A DNA stretch of 64,000 nt, taken from assembly GCA_030616775.1 (NCBI GenBank), contig JAUWWQ010000022.1, forward strand, positions 1 through 64,000, written 5' to 3'. The stretch's first letter is position 1; each line of letters begins with the position of its first letter. The notes beneath the pieces are model-generated. The model was not told where the DNA came from, did no database searches, and saw only the letters and a list, made by a program, of their open reading frames with translations. This stretch comes from Planctomycetota bacterium. GTDB taxonomy: Bacteria; Planctomycetota; Phycisphaerae; UBA1845. Positions 25,150-33,292 of the stretch are shown here, one piece after another. The position numbers and the translations under genes are program-made.

Positions 25150-25371
25150 CTACGGATGCTTCGGCAATCCCACTCATGTATCATAAGCCGGTTGCTTCAG
25201 AGTATCCGCATGGCCGGAAATATCGGGCCTGAATGCCCCAAGAGATCCGTATCGGCGCCATTGGCATCGGGGTCCGCATACATTACGGGACGCCATGAGT
25301 TCTTGATTGACCCGGGGGACCCACTGAAGGAGGGAGTACTACTCCGCTAGCACGAGGTAGGCGGCCGGGAA

Positions 25372-25989
25372 ATGGGTATTGACGACTCAAGTAAGCGGGC
25401 TCCGGAAGACGCGAGTTGGGTTCGTGTTCTCGACCGACAAAACGCCCCCTGCCCCGTATGTGGCTACAATCTTTACAAGAATACCTCGGGTACGTGCTCC
25501 GAATGTGGAACTCGCCTGTCTCTGGCTGTGGTTCCGGTCAGCGGTCCGGACCGCCGTCCGACCAAAGGGCTCCTGCAGTACGTTCGCATTGGGATTATTG
25601 TGGTTTGCCTGGTGCCCATCTCGCTTGCTCTTGCAACCTTTTTGTCTGATTTGATCTCTGGACACCGTTTTGTTGCTATGGAGATACTGCTGCCGACCTT
25701 TGGAGCGGCAACGCTCCTTGGGATTGCGACACTCGCGTCGCTCTTTGTCGTGCGAAAGATCCATTTCACTGTCAGCGCGGTCTTCTTCGGGTTCCTGGCC
25801 CTCATTATCGTAGTGAACATCTCTTCCGAACTCTTGAGCGGCATAACCTACCCCTCAACGGGAGCCGCACTGGCAGAGTACGGTCTTATGTTTGGTTTTC
25901 TGCTGCTGAACATCGCAGGACTCGGTGTAGAGATCATGTGCGAACGCAAGTCTCGGGCCCAGACGTTGCTGGAGAATGGAACGAGTTGA
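25372..25989 (+). CDS. Zinc-ribbon membrane protein
   Basis: The protein has 205 residues. Residues 26-50 form a zinc ribbon, CPVCGYNLYKNTSGTCSECG, the same CxxCxYNLx...CxECG pattern seen in other proteins of the window. Four hydrophobic helices follow (IGIIVVCLVPISLALATFL and later segments). The ribbon is N-terminal here but C-terminal in the relatives at 19802, 39943 and 40410. ATG 25372 has only a weak upstream purine run. Function unknown. Confidence 0.6.
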   Translation: MGIDDSSKRAPEDASWVRVLDRQNAPCPVCGYNLYKNTSGTCSECGTRLSLAVVPVSGPDRRPTKGLLQYVRIGIIVVCLVPISLALATFLSDLISGHRFVAMEILLPTFGAATLLGIATLASLFVVRKIHFTVSAVFFGFLALIIVVNISSELLSGITYPSTGAALAEYGLMFGFLLLNIAGLGVEIMCERKSRAQTLLENGTS

Positions 25990-26111
25990 GGTTGGAATTC
26001 TCGGCCTGGGAAGGCGAGGGCTTCTGGAGATAGCACGATCAAGACGTCTCAGGATAACGCGTGCCGGACTGCTGTCGCGGGGGCATGCTTCAACGGACAG
26101 AGAGAAACCGA

Positions 26112-27056
26112 ATGATGTCGAAAATGGGAGAGCCGACCGTCATGATCATTGGCCTGGGCGGCCTGGGTAGCGTGGTGCTGGAACTGCTTGCCCGACAGGA
26201 CGGTTTGGGCAGGATCATTGTCGGCAGCTTGGAGGACGCACCCAGCCGTGCTCTCTGCAATCTGGCTCGCACCGGCGCTGTCGCACAGGGATACAGTCCG
26301 GCGATCGAGTTTACCCCGCTTGATATAGACAAGCCTGTGAGCGTCGTCGATGCGGTCCATCGCTGCCGCCCGGACCTGATCTTCAGTGCCGCCACCATGC
26401 AGACCTGGTGGCTACCCAGCCTGCTGCCCGACGAGCAGCGCATGCTGATCAAGAGTGCCCGGTACGGCATGTGGTTACCGATCCACCTGACGCTTACGCT
26501 CAAGCTGATGCGGACTCTGAGGGACAGCAACTTTGAGGGGTTCACCTTGACCGCACCGTATCCGGATGTGATCAACCCGATCCTCGACCGACTCGGTCTT
26601 GCGCCTACTTGCGGTGTCGGCAATGTTGGTGAGATTGAACCCAAGGTCCGGCTTCTGGCGGCTCAGCAGTTGGGCACGCCGCTCGAAGCCGTCGACGTCT
26701 CTCTGGTCGCGCACCACGCGATGGTGTCGGTAGCTTATAGCGACGCGCCTCAGAACATTCCCCCCTACTTTCTACGAGTTAGACACAGGGGCGAGGATGT
26801 CACACGGATGATCCGAGCAGACGAGCTGTTGCTTTCACCATATCTGCTGCCGCCCGGGCCCGCGACGCATTTTCTCACCGCGGCATCGATCGTACCGCTG
26901 ATCCGAGCTTTCTTCTCCGACGAACCTTCGCGATTACACGCCCCGGTGACGAAAGCCGTTCCAGCCTTCAAAAACAACCCCATGTTGAGAATGCCCGCCA
27001 GCGCAAGGAACACGCCGCCCAGCACGCGCACGCCGCGCCCGAAACGCTTCTCGTAG
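26112..27056 (+). pseudogene. Rossmann-fold (saccharopine-dehydrogenase-like) gene, 3'-truncated
   Basis: From ATG 26112 the protein shows a dinucleotide-binding GLGGLGSVVLELLAR loop, an acidic strand end and the DLIFSAA region expected of NAD(P)-binding proteins of the saccharopine dehydrogenase type. Residues to about 277 look native and end FFSDEPSRLHAP. From about base 26943 the frame continues for 37 codons through what is plainly the antisense of a sodium:solute symporter gene, giving a Pro/Arg-rich tail with no homology. The natural C terminus is therefore missing and the enzyme is probably inactive. The junction coincides with the loss of the symporter. Confidence 0.6.
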
Positions 27057-27298
27057 AACTCGGGAATGGTCATCACCCGCATGCGGCGCAGCGGCACGAC
27101 GATGAATCCGGTCATACCTACGAGCAGCGTGATCACACCCGCTACCAGCCCGATATGGAACGCGGCGAATCCACCGGTGAACCCCTTCTGCGCGGAGTAC
27201 ATGACGGTCACCAGGCCGAGTTCGCTGCCGATCATCGTGGCGATGGCGAGGCAGGATCGCAGTGCCCGCCCGGCCACGATCACCATGACGTTCCTCAT
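26943..27298 (-). pseudogene. Sodium:solute symporter fragment
   Basis: The minus-strand frame from 27298 reads VAGRALRS, then TMIGSELGLVTVMYSAQKGF, FIVVPLRRMRVMTIPEFYEK and GILNMGLFLKAGTAFVTG. This is the order of transmembrane helices 2-4 of the SSS (SSF) family, including the MTIPEFYEKRFGR loop. It breaks off at about 26943, where the Rossmann gene on the other strand also breaks off. Roughly 400 C-terminal residues are absent. Upstream the first helix also seems to be missing, because no suitable start or hydrophobic stretch precedes 27298. Confidence 0.7.
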
Positions 27299-27430
27299 CC
27301 TGGTGGCGGGGACGAAGGGGCATGCGTCTCCGGGCGGAGCCGATTTCTCCGACAGATCCTACCTGCTCTTGCCGATAAAAATGTGCGGTATCGTGTTTGG
27401 GAGCCATGGTTCCTTTCGGGAGATCGGCTG

Positions 27431-27883
27431 ATGAGATATTTTGGAACAACCGGGCCGCGGCGCGCGGTCGCGCTGCTGCTGATTGTCAGCCACCTGTGTT
27501 TGTTCAGCGGATGTGCCACGCTTGCACACCGGTCGTCGGCCTCGGGGCAGCACGCGCAATCCACGGCGAACTGTAGCGGTGCAGGCGAGGTGTGCCCCTG
27601 GCTGCTCGGTGATGCTGGTCTGCTCCTGTTGGGCATCGTACCAGGCGTGATCGCCTTCATCGTCGATTTCGGGACGGGCGCCTGGCGTCACGCAGATGCC
27701 GGGCGGGTGATGACCGCGTCCGATGAGGTCGCCTCCGCTCACCTCCTGTTTAGTCCCACGCCCACCGGATCCACTGATATCCGAGCTTTGTTGTCGGCGG
27801 TGGGGCTGAGAGAAAGCGCGCAGCCGGCAGAGGCTCGGCTCTTCACGAGCAGGCTGGTATCAGTTCCGCATTCGACGCCGTGA
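27431..27883 (+). CDS. Small predicted lipoprotein
   Basis: The protein has 150 residues from ATG 27431, with GGAG nine bases upstream. The signal LLLIVSHLCLFSGCATLAH contains a good lipobox (LFSGC), so acylation at Cys26 is expected. A hydrophobic segment (AGLLLLGIVPGVIAFIVDFG) lies at about 64-83, and the remainder is polar. The order of segments recalls small YceK/YidQ-like outer-envelope lipoproteins, but the similarity is weak. It overlaps the upstream boundary of the next gene and probably belongs to the same transcript. Confidence 0.55.
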   Translation: MRYFGTTGPRRAVALLLIVSHLCLFSGCATLAHRSSASGQHAQSTANCSGAGEVCPWLLGDAGLLLLGIVPGVIAFIVDFGTGAWRHADAGRVMTASDEVASAHLLFSPTPTGSTDIRALLSAVGLRESAQPAEARLFTSRLVSVPHSTP

Positions 27884-27963
27884 GCCATTCGGCTACTCTC
27901 TCGAGCAGTGGACAACTTCCGGACTATGAATGGATGCGCATGATGAACGAACGTGTAACACCG

Positions 27964-28356
27964 ATGGCCCGTCTTGTAAGCATAGTGCTGGCGTATGCGG
28001 TTGGGATCGGCGTTGGCGGCTGCGACGGGTCCTTCACCCTCGAGTTGTTGACTACGGACGGCGATGGATGCTTTCAGCAAGGCGTGGTCGAAACCCAGTG
28101 TCACACGGAGGAGGTTCTCGAGGAACAGTGCTTCGAGCAAGACGTCGTCGAGACGCAATGTTACAGCGAAGAAATCCTCGAGGAACAGTGCCTGGTTATC
28201 GGATTCGTCGAGATCTGCGAAACCGTCGTGGTCGACGTGATTGAGGTCTGCGAGGACGTGGTGGTGGATACCCTTCTGGTGTGCGAAGACGTGGTCATCG
28301 ACGTTATCGAGGTTTGTGAAGACGTGGTGATCGACTCGGTCCTTATCTGCGAATGA
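27964..28356 (+). CDS. Cysteine-ladder repeat protein, probable lipoprotein
   Basis: From ATG 27964 (MARLVSIVLAYAVG) the protein has 130 residues. The signal ends VGIGVGGC, a plausible lipobox. The mature part is a continuous repeat with a cysteine every 10 residues in the first half (units such as HTEEVLEEQC, FEQDVVETQC and YSEEILEEQC) and every 11 in the second half (EDVVVDTLLVC, EDVVIDVIEVC). Ten cysteines mark the repeats, and the chain is strongly acidic, with Val/Ile at alternating positions. This suggests stacked beta strands with a cysteine ladder. I know no family with this exact spacing. In-frame starts at 27934 and 27940 are also possible. The protein ends abruptly one residue after the last cysteine. 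Confidence 0.6.
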   Translation: MARLVSIVLAYAVGIGVGGCDGSFTLELLTTDGDGCFQQGVVETQCHTEEVLEEQCFEQDVVETQCYSEEILEEQCLVIGFVEICETVVVDVIEVCEDVVVDTLLVCEDVVIDVIEVCEDVVIDSVLICE

Positions 28357-28437
28357 CCATCGTCTTTCGCCGCGTTGTCTTCATTCGCACCCCCCGCTGC
28401 GAGGGGTTGTGCGCGGGCGTTTGCCCGCAAAGCGTGC
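28357..28437. other. Short intergenic region with GC hairpin
   Basis: After the Cys-ladder gene there is a hairpin, GCGGGCGTTTGCCCGC, at about 28412-28427. It may terminate transcription, although no U-tract follows. It is followed directly by a dehydrogenase fragment. The bases from about 28699 to 28823 hold only the start region of the next kinase gene. Confidence 0.35.
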
Positions 28438-28698
28438 GGCGGTGTGATCCTGAACACGGCCTCCACCAACGGCATCATGGGTTACCCTTTCTATGCCGAC
28501 TATAACGCCAGCAAGGCGGCGGTCATCGAGCTGACCCGGTCGATGGCTCTGGAGCTGGTCCCGACTGTTCGCGTCAATGCCGTTGCGCCAGGCTATGTGC
28601 TCACACCCATGCAGCGCGCCGAATATACCGACGCGATGCTCGAGGAAGTCAACCGCAAGATCCCCTTACGACGCCACGCACAGCCCGAAGAGGTCGCG
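28438..28698 (+). pseudogene. Internal fragment of a short-chain dehydrogenase (SDR)
   Basis: The encoded peptide runs from GGVILNTASTNGIMGYPF through YNASKAAVIELTRSMALEL, RVNAVAPGYVLTPM and RRHAQPEEVA. It contains the catalytic YxxxK of classical SDRs (YNASK) and the NAVAPG strand. Both ends are missing: there is no TGxxxGxG cofactor loop before it and no C-terminal GxxxxVDGG after it. The frame is open for another 250 bases into the following kinase gene. It is a deletion remnant. Confidence 0.75.
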
Positions 28699-28823
28699 GC
28701 ACAAGGTCCCCAGTTTGCGCCGGCGCGGCTATACATTGACCTCGGCCGGGTAAGTAGGCGACAGAAACCCCGCCCGTGGTATAATCTCAGCATCAGTGTC
28801 AGCTCGCTGTTTACGAGGGCACC

Positions 28824-30797
28824 GTGCAAGTGGACGAAAGCGCTACAGCGCGGAGTCTCGAAGCAGGCGTCCAGATCGGCGATTTCCGAATCGAGCGGCG
28901 CCTCGGTGCGGGGGGAATGGGGATTGTCTACCGTGCCCGCCAGGTCTCGCTAAACCGCATCGTTGCGCTCAAGGTCCTCGGCGGTGCTCTTACCCGCCCG
29001 AGTGACATCGTACGCTTTCAGCGCGAAGCACAGGCCGCCGCACGGTTGAACCATCCGAACATCGCCACCGTCCACTTCGTCGGGCAGGATGATCAGCAAT
29101 GCTACATGGCCATCGAGTACGTCGAGGGGCCCTCACTGGCACGAATCATCCGCTGTCTGGCGACGGCTGGTGACCCCAAGTTGCACCTAGACTCGGTCGT
29201 GCGAACCATCGAGCAGGCTGAACCTCGGGCTCCGACCATGCGCTTCGACGAACCGACCGAAACGCTCGCCCCTGAAGACGCTGCCAAGTCTCACGAATAC
29301 GACCTCGAACGAATCACCCCGGAAGCCGAGCAACTGGCACAATCGGCGATCCACATCCGTCGATGCTGTGAACTGGTCCGTGACGCGGCACACGCGCTTA
29401 CGCACGCCCACGGTAAGAGCGTTGTTCACCGGGACATCAAGCCGGAAAACCTACTCTTGGACAGCGGCGGTCAGGTGCACATCATCGACTTTGGGATCGC
29501 CCGCTTCTTTGAGGACGCCACGATAACGCAGACCGGGCGGCTCGTGGGAACGCCCATGTACATGAGCCCGGAGCAGGTCACCACCAGGCTTGACGTCGAT
29601 CACCGCACGGACATCTACTCGCTCGGCCTGGTCCTGTACGAGCTGCTTACCCTTCGACCGGTCATGCTGGCCCCCACACGCGAGGGCGTTCTGCGCAACA
29701 TCGTCACCAAGGCCCTACCCCCTGTCGGCTCAAAGAACCCGGACGTTTCGCAGGACCTGGAAGGCATTGTCCACAAGGCGACAGCCAGAGATCCCGACGT
29801 GCGCTACCAGACGGCAAGAGAAATAGCAGCAGACTTGCAACGGTGGCTCGATGGAAAGCCGGTATCGGCCAAGCCCTATCGATACGAGATGGATCTGACG
29901 GAGATTGAAGCCACCCGACCGCGTTCGGTGCTTGCCTTGTCCATCGCGCTTCAGGCGGTCTTCCTAGTGTTGGCATTGTTTGGGATCGCATTCCTTTTTT
30001 TAGAACTAGGTTCTGTCGGACTCTTGATTGGTCTTGGCGTGCTCTCAATTGGGTCCGCCACGTTTATTCTTGGGTGGGGCCTCGTTAGTGGCTACAGTTG
30101 GGCCAGATGGTTGGCCCTTGAACTTGCGATCGTAATCGGCGGGCTCCCAGTGTGGGGGCTCATTGCGGCATTACGCGAGGAGCAGAATGGAGGCCTCTCT
30201 TGGGGACTATTAATCTTGTTCCCCCCGATCTCGTTGTCGATCGCGCTTCTTGTGGTTACTTCACGCCGGAAAGCGAGAGATTGGCTGGTTCGCGCAAGGC
30301 GCGTGCGGGCCGAGTGCATGCGGGGGAACAAGGTTTTTGGGGGGGCTGTTGCAGCCTTCCTTGCTGCCTTGGGTCCCGTCGCCTTTGTGGCCCAAGCAAT
30401 GCAGCCGGAAACGGAATACCGGAACTACGAGATAGAAAAGTACCTCGCAGAGGAGAAGTACACCGACGCTGAGACGGCGTCGACAGTGCAGCTCATCTAC
30501 CGAAAGAGGGACGTGCAAAAGGGGGATCTGCCTGAGGGTCATTGGAAGATCGGGTACATGATGACCCTTCTGGGCGCGGCGTTTTCTGGGCAAGAGAAGT
30601 TCGAGGAAGCGGAGCCGCAGCTTCTCGACGGCTACAGCCAAATGAAGAATGACCCAGAAGTCCCAGAAGAGCGAATGCAAGAAGCACTTCAGCGCATCAT
30701 CGAACTCTACGAAACCTGGGGCAAACCCGACGAAGCGGCCGAGTACCGCTCGATGCTTGCCCAGGACCCGGACGCCAGCGAAGCTGCGCTTCCGTAA
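28824..30797 (+). CDS. Hanks-type serine/threonine kinase with membrane region
   Basis: The protein has 657 residues from GTG 28824, with GAGG six bases upstream. The kinase domain (16-330) is complete: glycine loop GAGGMG, Lys50 in VALKVL, catalytic Asp204 in HRDIKPEN, DFG with Asp222, and MSPEQV. About 60 extra residues (112-170), rich in Glu, Thr and Pro, are inserted before the catalytic loop. The central part (365-545) has about six hydrophobic helices, and the C terminus (550-655) has helical repeats resembling TPRs. Such kinases sense envelope signals and phosphorylate cytoplasmic partners. No phosphatase or substrate gene is adjacent. It contrasts with the HCG pseudokinase at 6496. 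Confidence 0.85.
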   Translation: MQVDESATARSLEAGVQIGDFRIERRLGAGGMGIVYRARQVSLNRIVALKVLGGALTRPSDIVRFQREAQAAARLNHPNIATVHFVGQDDQQCYMAIEYVEGPSLARIIRCLATAGDPKLHLDSVVRTIEQAEPRAPTMRFDEPTETLAPEDAAKSHEYDLERITPEAEQLAQSAIHIRRCCELVRDAAHALTHAHGKSVVHRDIKPENLLLDSGGQVHIIDFGIARFFEDATITQTGRLVGTPMYMSPEQVTTRLDVDHRTDIYSLGLVLYELLTLRPVMLAPTREGVLRNIVTKALPPVGSKNPDVSQDLEGIVHKATARDPDVRYQTAREIAADLQRWLDGKPVSAKPYRYEMDLTEIEATRPRSVLALSIALQAVFLVLALFGIAFLFLELGSVGLLIGLGVLSIGSATFILGWGLVSGYSWARWLALELAIVIGGLPVWGLIAALREEQNGGLSWGLLILFPPISLSIALLVVTSRRKARDWLVRARRVRAECMRGNKVFGGAVAAFLAALGPVAFVAQAMQPETEYRNYEIEKYLAEEKYTDAETASTVQLIYRKRDVQKGDLPEGHWKIGYMMTLLGAAFSGQEKFEEAEPQLLDGYSQMKNDPEVPEERMQEALQRIIELYETWGKPDEAAEYRSMLAQDPDASEAALP

Positions 30798-32460: not shown

Positions 32461-32481
32461 TCTCGGCATGGCTCGGGCTGG

Positions 32482-32559
32482 GGATTGGCTGGCGGCAAAC
32501 GAGCGGCGTCGTATTGTGCTTCCAAGGGAGCGGTGGTCAACTTGACGCGCGCCATGGCC
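32482..32559 (+). pseudogene. Short SDR fragment with catalytic YxxxK
   Basis: The 26 codons encode GLAGGKRAASYCASKGAVVN followed by LTRAMA. This is the active-site helix of classical short-chain dehydrogenases (YCASK). Nothing of the family precedes or follows. At the right end it joins an IS630 transposase in another frame. It is the second SDR fragment within 4 kb. The sequences of the two fragments differ, so they derive from different genes. Confidence 0.6.
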
Positions 32560-33292
32560 ACTTCGATCCCGCCCACTTGGAGCGGCTTCGGCGATGGTTG
32601 CGTCAATACCCTGACGCTACGCTCGAATGGTTGCTGGGTCGTGCAGAGCGGGAGATGGGATTACGTTGCAGCGTCATGGCGGTATGTCGTGCGGTCAAGA
32701 AGCTGGGGTGGTCGCTCAAAAATAAACGCTTCGAGCCGACGAACAAGATCGTCCGGACGTAGCCCGCCGACGCATGAACTTCGCTATCGCGCGTCGCTTC
32801 GCCGACCTCGACCAGTTCGTTTTCCTCGACGAATCCAGTGCTAAGACCAACATGACGCGCCTGTACGGGCGTGCGCCCGTTGGCCAGCGTTGCTACTTTT
32901 CCGCGCCGCACGGTCATTGGAGCACCACGACCTTGCTTAGTGCCATTCGTGGTACGGGCGTGATCGAAGATGCTTCGGTCGTGTTCGATGGTCCAACCGA
33001 CGCGATCGTCTTTCGCTGTTACGTTGAGCAATGCCTGGCGCCTTCGTTGCGGGCGGGCGACATCGTGATGATGGACAATCTGGCGAGCCACAAAGTAACG
33101 GGTGTTCGCGAGGCGATCGACTCGGTTGGCGCAAGCGTCTGGTACTTGCCACCCTATTCGCCAGACCTGAATCCGATCGAGAAGATGTGGAGCAAGATCA
33201 AAGCGTGGCTACGCCGCGTCGCCGCGCGAACAGTCGAAGGATTGATCCAGGCCGTAGGCGAAGCGTTACGCGCGGTCGACGCAGCCGAATGA
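32556..33292 (+). mobile_element. IS630-family transposase, 5'-truncated and frameshifted
   Basis: The first frame, to the TAG at 32760-32762, carries the second half of the N-terminal helix-turn-helix region (LRRWLRQYPDATLEWLL and LGWSLKN). The second frame encodes the catalytic part: TLRADEQDRPDVARRR, FLDESS (first Asp), MMDNLASH (second Asp) and YSPDLNPIEKMWSKIK (Glu). It is open only after a TAA at 32723, so the -1 change must fall at about 32723-32728. I see no canonical A-AAA-AAG slip site. About 90 N-terminal residues are missing at the join to the SDR fragment. The element is therefore a non-autonomous remnant. No terminal inverted repeats were found. Confidence 0.8.

Follow-up and report, generated by a model that had tools for sequence, protein, structure and literature searches.

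Results

The ladder gene and its surroundings

The stretch of DNA analysed here (the window, 64,000 nucleotides) carries at 27940..28356 on the forward strand a gene for a cysteine-ladder lipoprotein of 138 aa, which was defined from its ORF, from its homologues and from the low pN against saturated pS between its internal repeats. The first-pass annotation had marked the ORF as 27964-28356 (+); this frame is present, and in-frame ATGs lie upstream of it at 27940 and 27943. Residues are numbered here from the ATG at 27940. A start at 27964 is also possible; the signal peptides of the homologues, in which the cysteine falls at residue 21-27, leave 27940, 27943 and 27964 all possible. The N-terminus is a predicted type II (lipoprotein) signal peptide (27940..28020, +) that ends VGG/C, with Cys28 closing the lipobox (GVGGC); this cysteine (28021..28023, +) is the predicted lipidated +1 residue and is followed by Asp at +2. 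All four members of the family described below match the same PROSITE-like pattern, a basic n-region and a hydrophobic stretch leading to a lipobox [..][..][AGS]C whose cysteine lies at residue 21-28. The protein is thus predicted to be a lipoprotein, as had been proposed, and by the same prediction its ladder cysteines are extracytoplasmic.

Upstream, a second predicted lipoprotein (27431-27883, 150 aa) ends 57 bases before the ATG at 27940; it has no Pfam match and has about 81% DNA identity in G002, a genome of the same genus. Downstream lie the C-terminal part of a short-chain dehydrogenase (SDR; 28408-28701) and a Ser/Thr kinase (28824-30797), and further on a smaller short-chain dehydrogenase scrap (32473-32571) comes shortly before a DDE_3 (IS630-like) transposase (32774-33292). 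A search of the window for Rfam families and tRNAs returned one tRNA-Leu only. The neighbours differ at all four loci at which a family member is found, so that the context gives no function, and an explanation by an operon or by conserved neighbours was rejected. Proteins with W-repeats (DUF6600, WXXGXW) adjoin two of the three homologues, at 234-1412 in L003 and 1977-3164 in L004; one of these genes is convergent with the homologue beside it, the other shares the strand of its homologue and lies upstream of it, and this proximity may be chance.

The matching locus of G002 aligns with window positions 27266-27904 and then passes into unrelated DNA with no ladder ORF. Relative to G002, the interval 25268-27904 of the window combines three segments (25268-26925, 26942-27277 and 27266-27904) whose counterparts in G002 lie far apart, an arrangement that suggests a rearrangement next to the ladder gene in either the window genome or G002.

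A periodic ladder of ten cysteines

The gaps between the ten ladder cysteines that follow Cys28 are 10,10,10,10,9,11,11,11,11, exactly as first described. Random placement of ten cysteines in the mature chain would put all gaps at 9-11 with a probability of 8e-9, a null that ignores the origin of the repeats by duplication; conservation in homologues is the better test. The mature chain is strongly acidic, as had also been stated, with a net charge of -31. The description of the chain as alternating Val/Ile was partly right: in the N-terminal half, pairs of adjacent hydrophobic residues recur at intervals of about 5. The C-terminal half follows the pattern C-E-[DE]-V-V-[IV]-D-x-h-[LE]-[VI].

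The ladder can be divided into two arms and a central repeat, all on the forward strand. The N-arm (28069..28188) consists of four 10-residue repeats, CFQQGVVETQ/CHTEEVLEEQ/CFEQDVVETQ/CYSEEILEEQ, which amount to a 20-aa unit (CFQQGVVETQ CHTEEVLEEQ) present twice. It is followed by the central repeat CLVIGFVEI (28189..28215), which was placed by repeat-level alignment and by the position of its motif, the only Gly-Phe of the window ladder. The C-arm (28216..28347) has four 11-residue repeats, CETVVVDVIEV/CEDVVVDTLLV/CEDVVIDVIEV/CEDVVIDSVLI, and here a 22-aa unit (CETVVVDVIEV CEDVVVDTLLV) is present twice. A terminal Cys-Glu-stop (28348..28356) ends the ORF, and an identical C-E-stop closes L003 and L004.

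Comparison of the internal copies of the 20- and 22-aa units gives saturated synonymous sites (pS 0.81 and 0.77) and little change at amino-acid sites (pN 0.11 and 0.16; pN/pS about 0.14-0.21); third codon positions account for 9 of the 14 and 13 of the 20 differences. Since pN is low where pS is saturated, the ladder ORF is, on the evidence of its codons, a real protein under selection; the duplications are old, and the protein has been retained.

Relatives and distribution

Two clear homologues were found among the 60 relatives searched: L003 (122 aa, 42% identity to the window protein, E 2.9e-20) and L004 (90 aa, 33% identity, E 4.2e-5). An alignment scan of genome contigs matched these two only, the records being Planctomycetota bacterium isolate B3T1B8 and Phycisphaerae bacterium isolate OFTM286; the Phycisphaerae are early-diverging planctomycetes. 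A single-sequence scan of the genome contigs gave no match. A further candidate, L018, is a 97-aa lipoprotein with a marginal E of 0.056 against the three-member profile; its ladder gaps are those of L004, and random placement would put all of them at 9-11 with a probability of 3e-5. It is graded a probable member of the family, not a certain one, because the profile favours cysteines at ladder spacings.

The homologues have 8 (L003), 6 (L004) and 6 (L018) ladder cysteines, with gaps of 10,10,10,10,10,11,11 in L003 and 10,10,10,10,11 in both L004 and L018. The first-pass annotation had held that homologues with unconserved cysteines would argue against a designed ladder; every homologue retains its cysteines at the ladder spacing, which stays constant across the four proteins although most other residues differ. 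In 25 Cys-aligned repeats from the four proteins (a set without the window protein's central repeat, which has 9 residues), cysteine is the sole invariant residue. The 11-residue repeats further share V5 and an acidic position 7, and are mostly hydrophobic at 4, 6, 9 and 11.

It had been suggested on first inspection that the cysteines might bind metal or hold cofactors, in which case soft metal ions or clusters would be held at the surface of the cell by the regular thiolates of an acidic chain. A net charge of -31 together with ten thiols would suit such a role, but CxC and CxxC motifs are absent across the ladder, as is any conserved His, and no metal-handling neighbours lie within the window. 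Further, 6 and 10 cysteines cannot be divided into Cys4 sites, so that the counts of 6, 8 and 10 give four-cysteine sites no support. The carriers also possess disulfide-forming machinery: the VKOR family scores above the Pfam cut-off in 4/4 carrier genomes versus 3/14 control genomes (the comparison covered the carriers and these controls). Metal or cofactor binding is consequently a reading to which we give very little weight.

That the protein matches no recognised family, as had been the first impression, was borne out by the database searches, which found nothing credible in Pfam and NCBIfam (three members searched), in PHROGs (four members searched) or among PDB sequences. The family was likewise not found in viral contigs or plasmids. 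Its carriers are 4 of the 114 genomes of the order, all in one GTDB family of Planctomycetota; there were no further members in that family (51 genomes) or in the order (114 genomes), and profile searches of class and phylum samples (397 and 392 genomes) gave no members outside the family, only weak matches without a ladder. A search at the DNA level for six TGY codons 11 apart returned mostly repeats and out-of-frame noise, in which no member was recognised. Two period-10 matches in G030, L053 (1120-1662) and L078, were rejected as unrelated; they are short period-30 tandem DNA repeats (such as TPVQNRCHTE when translated) that mimic a ladder in one frame. As far as these searches reach, the ladder family is a rare, patchy and small orphan family.

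Such a narrow and patchy distribution, along with the absence of conserved neighbours and of the gene itself at the matching locus of G002, is what might be seen for an ordinary lineage-specific repeat lipoprotein with no fixed function, which arose when a short beta-prone unit was duplicated, then diverged without constraint, and whose spacing was inherited rather than selected. Against this, pN/pS is well under 1 with synonymous sites saturated between the internal units, and no residue but cysteine recurs throughout the repeats of all members; we regard this explanation as improbable.

Arms of equal length around a central repeat

In a repeat-by-repeat alignment in which cysteine was left unscored, repeat 5 of the window protein pairs with repeat 4 of L003 and with repeat 3 of L004. 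The counterparts of CLVIGFVEI are thus CGLDFFGFEV in L003 and CEEDFFGFVD in L004, with CFSAPTGLTA in L018. The match of the window protein's central repeat to those of the other members is weak. The central repeat carries each ladder's only Gly-Phe (Gly-Leu in L018), the one exception being a second Gly-Leu inside the same repeat of L003. In all four members the arms on either side are equal: 4+1+4 in the window protein, 3+1+3 in L003, 2+1+2 in L004 and 2+1+2 in L018. The chance of a central position in every case is 1/9 x 1/7 x 1/5 x 1/5, or about 1/1575 (~6e-4), a naive figure, given that the four proteins share ancestry and that the motif was picked out in hindsight. These length-matched arms around a central Gly-Phe/Leu repeat, as read from the aligned repeats, are a new observation of this analysis.

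Equal arms around one central repeat result in an even number of ladder cysteines, and the counts are even in all four members (10, 8, 6 and 6). Between members the length changes in matched steps; L003 has one more repeat per arm than L004, and the window protein has two more per arm than L004. Growth of both arms together is what would be expected if N-arm repeats pair with C-arm repeats.

The main rival to such a fold-back is a beta-solenoid in which every coil takes 20-22 residues, contains two cysteines and is closed by the disulfide that joins them (C1-C2, C3-C4 and so on), on the pattern assumed for the beetle antifreeze proteins but with a larger coil. The window sequence does repeat best as 20-aa and 22-aa units with two cysteines each, and the cysteine counts are even. 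In the 12-residue coil of the beetle proteins, two cysteines lie half a coil apart and are bonded across the core (PMC8038014). Nonetheless, a solenoid does not predict arms of equal length, and L003 and L004 differ by one repeat per arm, not by two-cysteine units at one place. Judged by the matched arms, a disulfide-bonded fold-back is at least as strongly suggested as a simple solenoid.

AlphaFold2 was run on two alignments and both models were poor (mean pLDDT 50.3 and 30.7), too poor to tell whether the cysteines lie on one face, as the stacked-strand solenoid first proposed would require. The first, a low-confidence model, is all-beta over residues 32-115, with strands at 44-70 and 87-115; the break between them, at residues 71-86, comes slightly ahead of the central repeat (84-92). 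The C-arm has a higher propensity for strand than for helix (Pb 1.19 versus Pa 1.08). A Foldseek search with the better model gave no fold match, the best E being 0.36 with TM-scores around 0.1-0.2, which are meaningless. The lack of a fold match and the poor models also count against the solenoid, which we consider unlikely, if a serious competitor.

Discussion

The reading we prefer is that the gene encodes an envelope-anchored, disulfide-stapled, beta-rich repeat protein that folds back at its central repeat so that the arms pair as mirror images; we hold it to be somewhat short of an even chance. The oxidation state, pairing, fold and structural role that we infer for the ladder protein are as follows. 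The product would be a small protein, anchored in the cell envelope by lipid. Its mature chain is acidic and for the most part beta-prone, and each repeat of 10-11 residues in it carries one cysteine. This chain would fold back at the central Gly-Phe/Leu repeat, leaving arms of equal repeat number on either side. Paired thiols outside the cytoplasm usually turn into disulfides, and the ladder cysteines would form structural disulfides in pairs, the simplest scheme being that each cysteine of the N-arm bonds to its mirror in the C-arm (C5-C6, C4-C7 and onward outward). The VKOR-type disulfide generator encoded by all four carriers counts in favour of this model. The outcome would be a rigid, stapled acidic stalk or patch at the membrane surface, and the protein, as a lipoprotein of the envelope, would have a structural role or one in interactions.

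Some points count against this fold-back model. In the window protein the N-arm has a spacing of 10 and the C-arm one of 11, so that mirror-paired arms would have to accommodate a bulge in every repeat of the C-arm. Furthermore, there are four members only, and one of them (L018) is marginal. The poor structure models, the break that the first of them places ahead of the central repeat, and the weak match and hindsight recognition of the central motif also weigh against it. The more general proposal of a “cysteine zipper” architecture, in which equal arms of one-cysteine repeats fold back about a central Gly repeat and are stapled rung by rung through nested disulfides, and in which length evolves only by the gain of repeats in both arms together, is offered as speculative and rather unlikely as it stands. 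If the mirrored-arm model is true, the family would supply a beta module found in nature, only 70-110 residues long, stapled by disulfides and adjustable in length, which would be useful to structural biologists and protein designers.

Comparison with known systems

In pentapeptide-repeat proteins the hydrophobic residues sit at i-2 and i, whereas those of the ladder protein are adjacent and its C-arm unit is 11 residues; the pentapeptide Pfam profile gave no match at E<=1. These proteins form a quadrilateral beta-helix with four pentapeptides per coil (PMC8145042), and the N-arm resembles them in having hydrophobic pairs about every 5 residues, such that 20 residues would make one coil.

There is also a likeness to the hyperactive antifreeze proteins of beetles, TmAFP and DhbAFP, which are built of 12-residue TCTxSxNCxxAx coils with disulfides thought to staple each coil (PMC8038014). 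Both they and the ladder protein have short tandem repeats with strictly periodic cysteines. The beetle proteins are of animal origin and Thr-rich, with two cysteines six apart per 12-residue coil, and no sequence similarity between them and the ladder protein was found; the latter has one cysteine per 10-11 residues, lacks TCT, is acidic and has a predicted lipid anchor and two arms about a central repeat.

Among planctomycetes, the YTV-domain proteins are cysteine-rich components of the cell envelope, reported only from Planctomycetales/Planctomycetia and suggested to affect the rigidity of the wall (PMC8567305; PMC10632474). It has been proposed that YTV-domain wall proteins of Planctomycetales are cross-linked, and the ladder protein could in the same way be a component of an insoluble, cystine-rich surface layer held by intermolecular disulfides, being itself cysteine-rich and, by prediction, lipid-anchored in the envelope of a planctomycete. 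A distribution as rare and patchy as this one (4 carriers among the 114 genomes of the order) does not resemble that of a main wall component, and early-diverging planctomycetes are reported to lack YTV genes (PMC8567305), yet one carrier is labelled Phycisphaerae; such a cross-linked layer seems to us a rather improbable role. The ladder protein also differs from the YTV proteins in being a small lipoprotein (90-138 aa), and the YTV motif is absent from all four members, which together with the Phycisphaerae record shows that the ladder family is not a YTV member. It may nevertheless play a comparable part. Cysteine-rich repeat proteins have long been known from planctomycete envelopes, and the ladder family is an independent case of them, including a class reported to be without YTV proteins. 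More broadly, the ladder family belongs with the cysteine-rich, probably disulfide-stapled repeat proteins.
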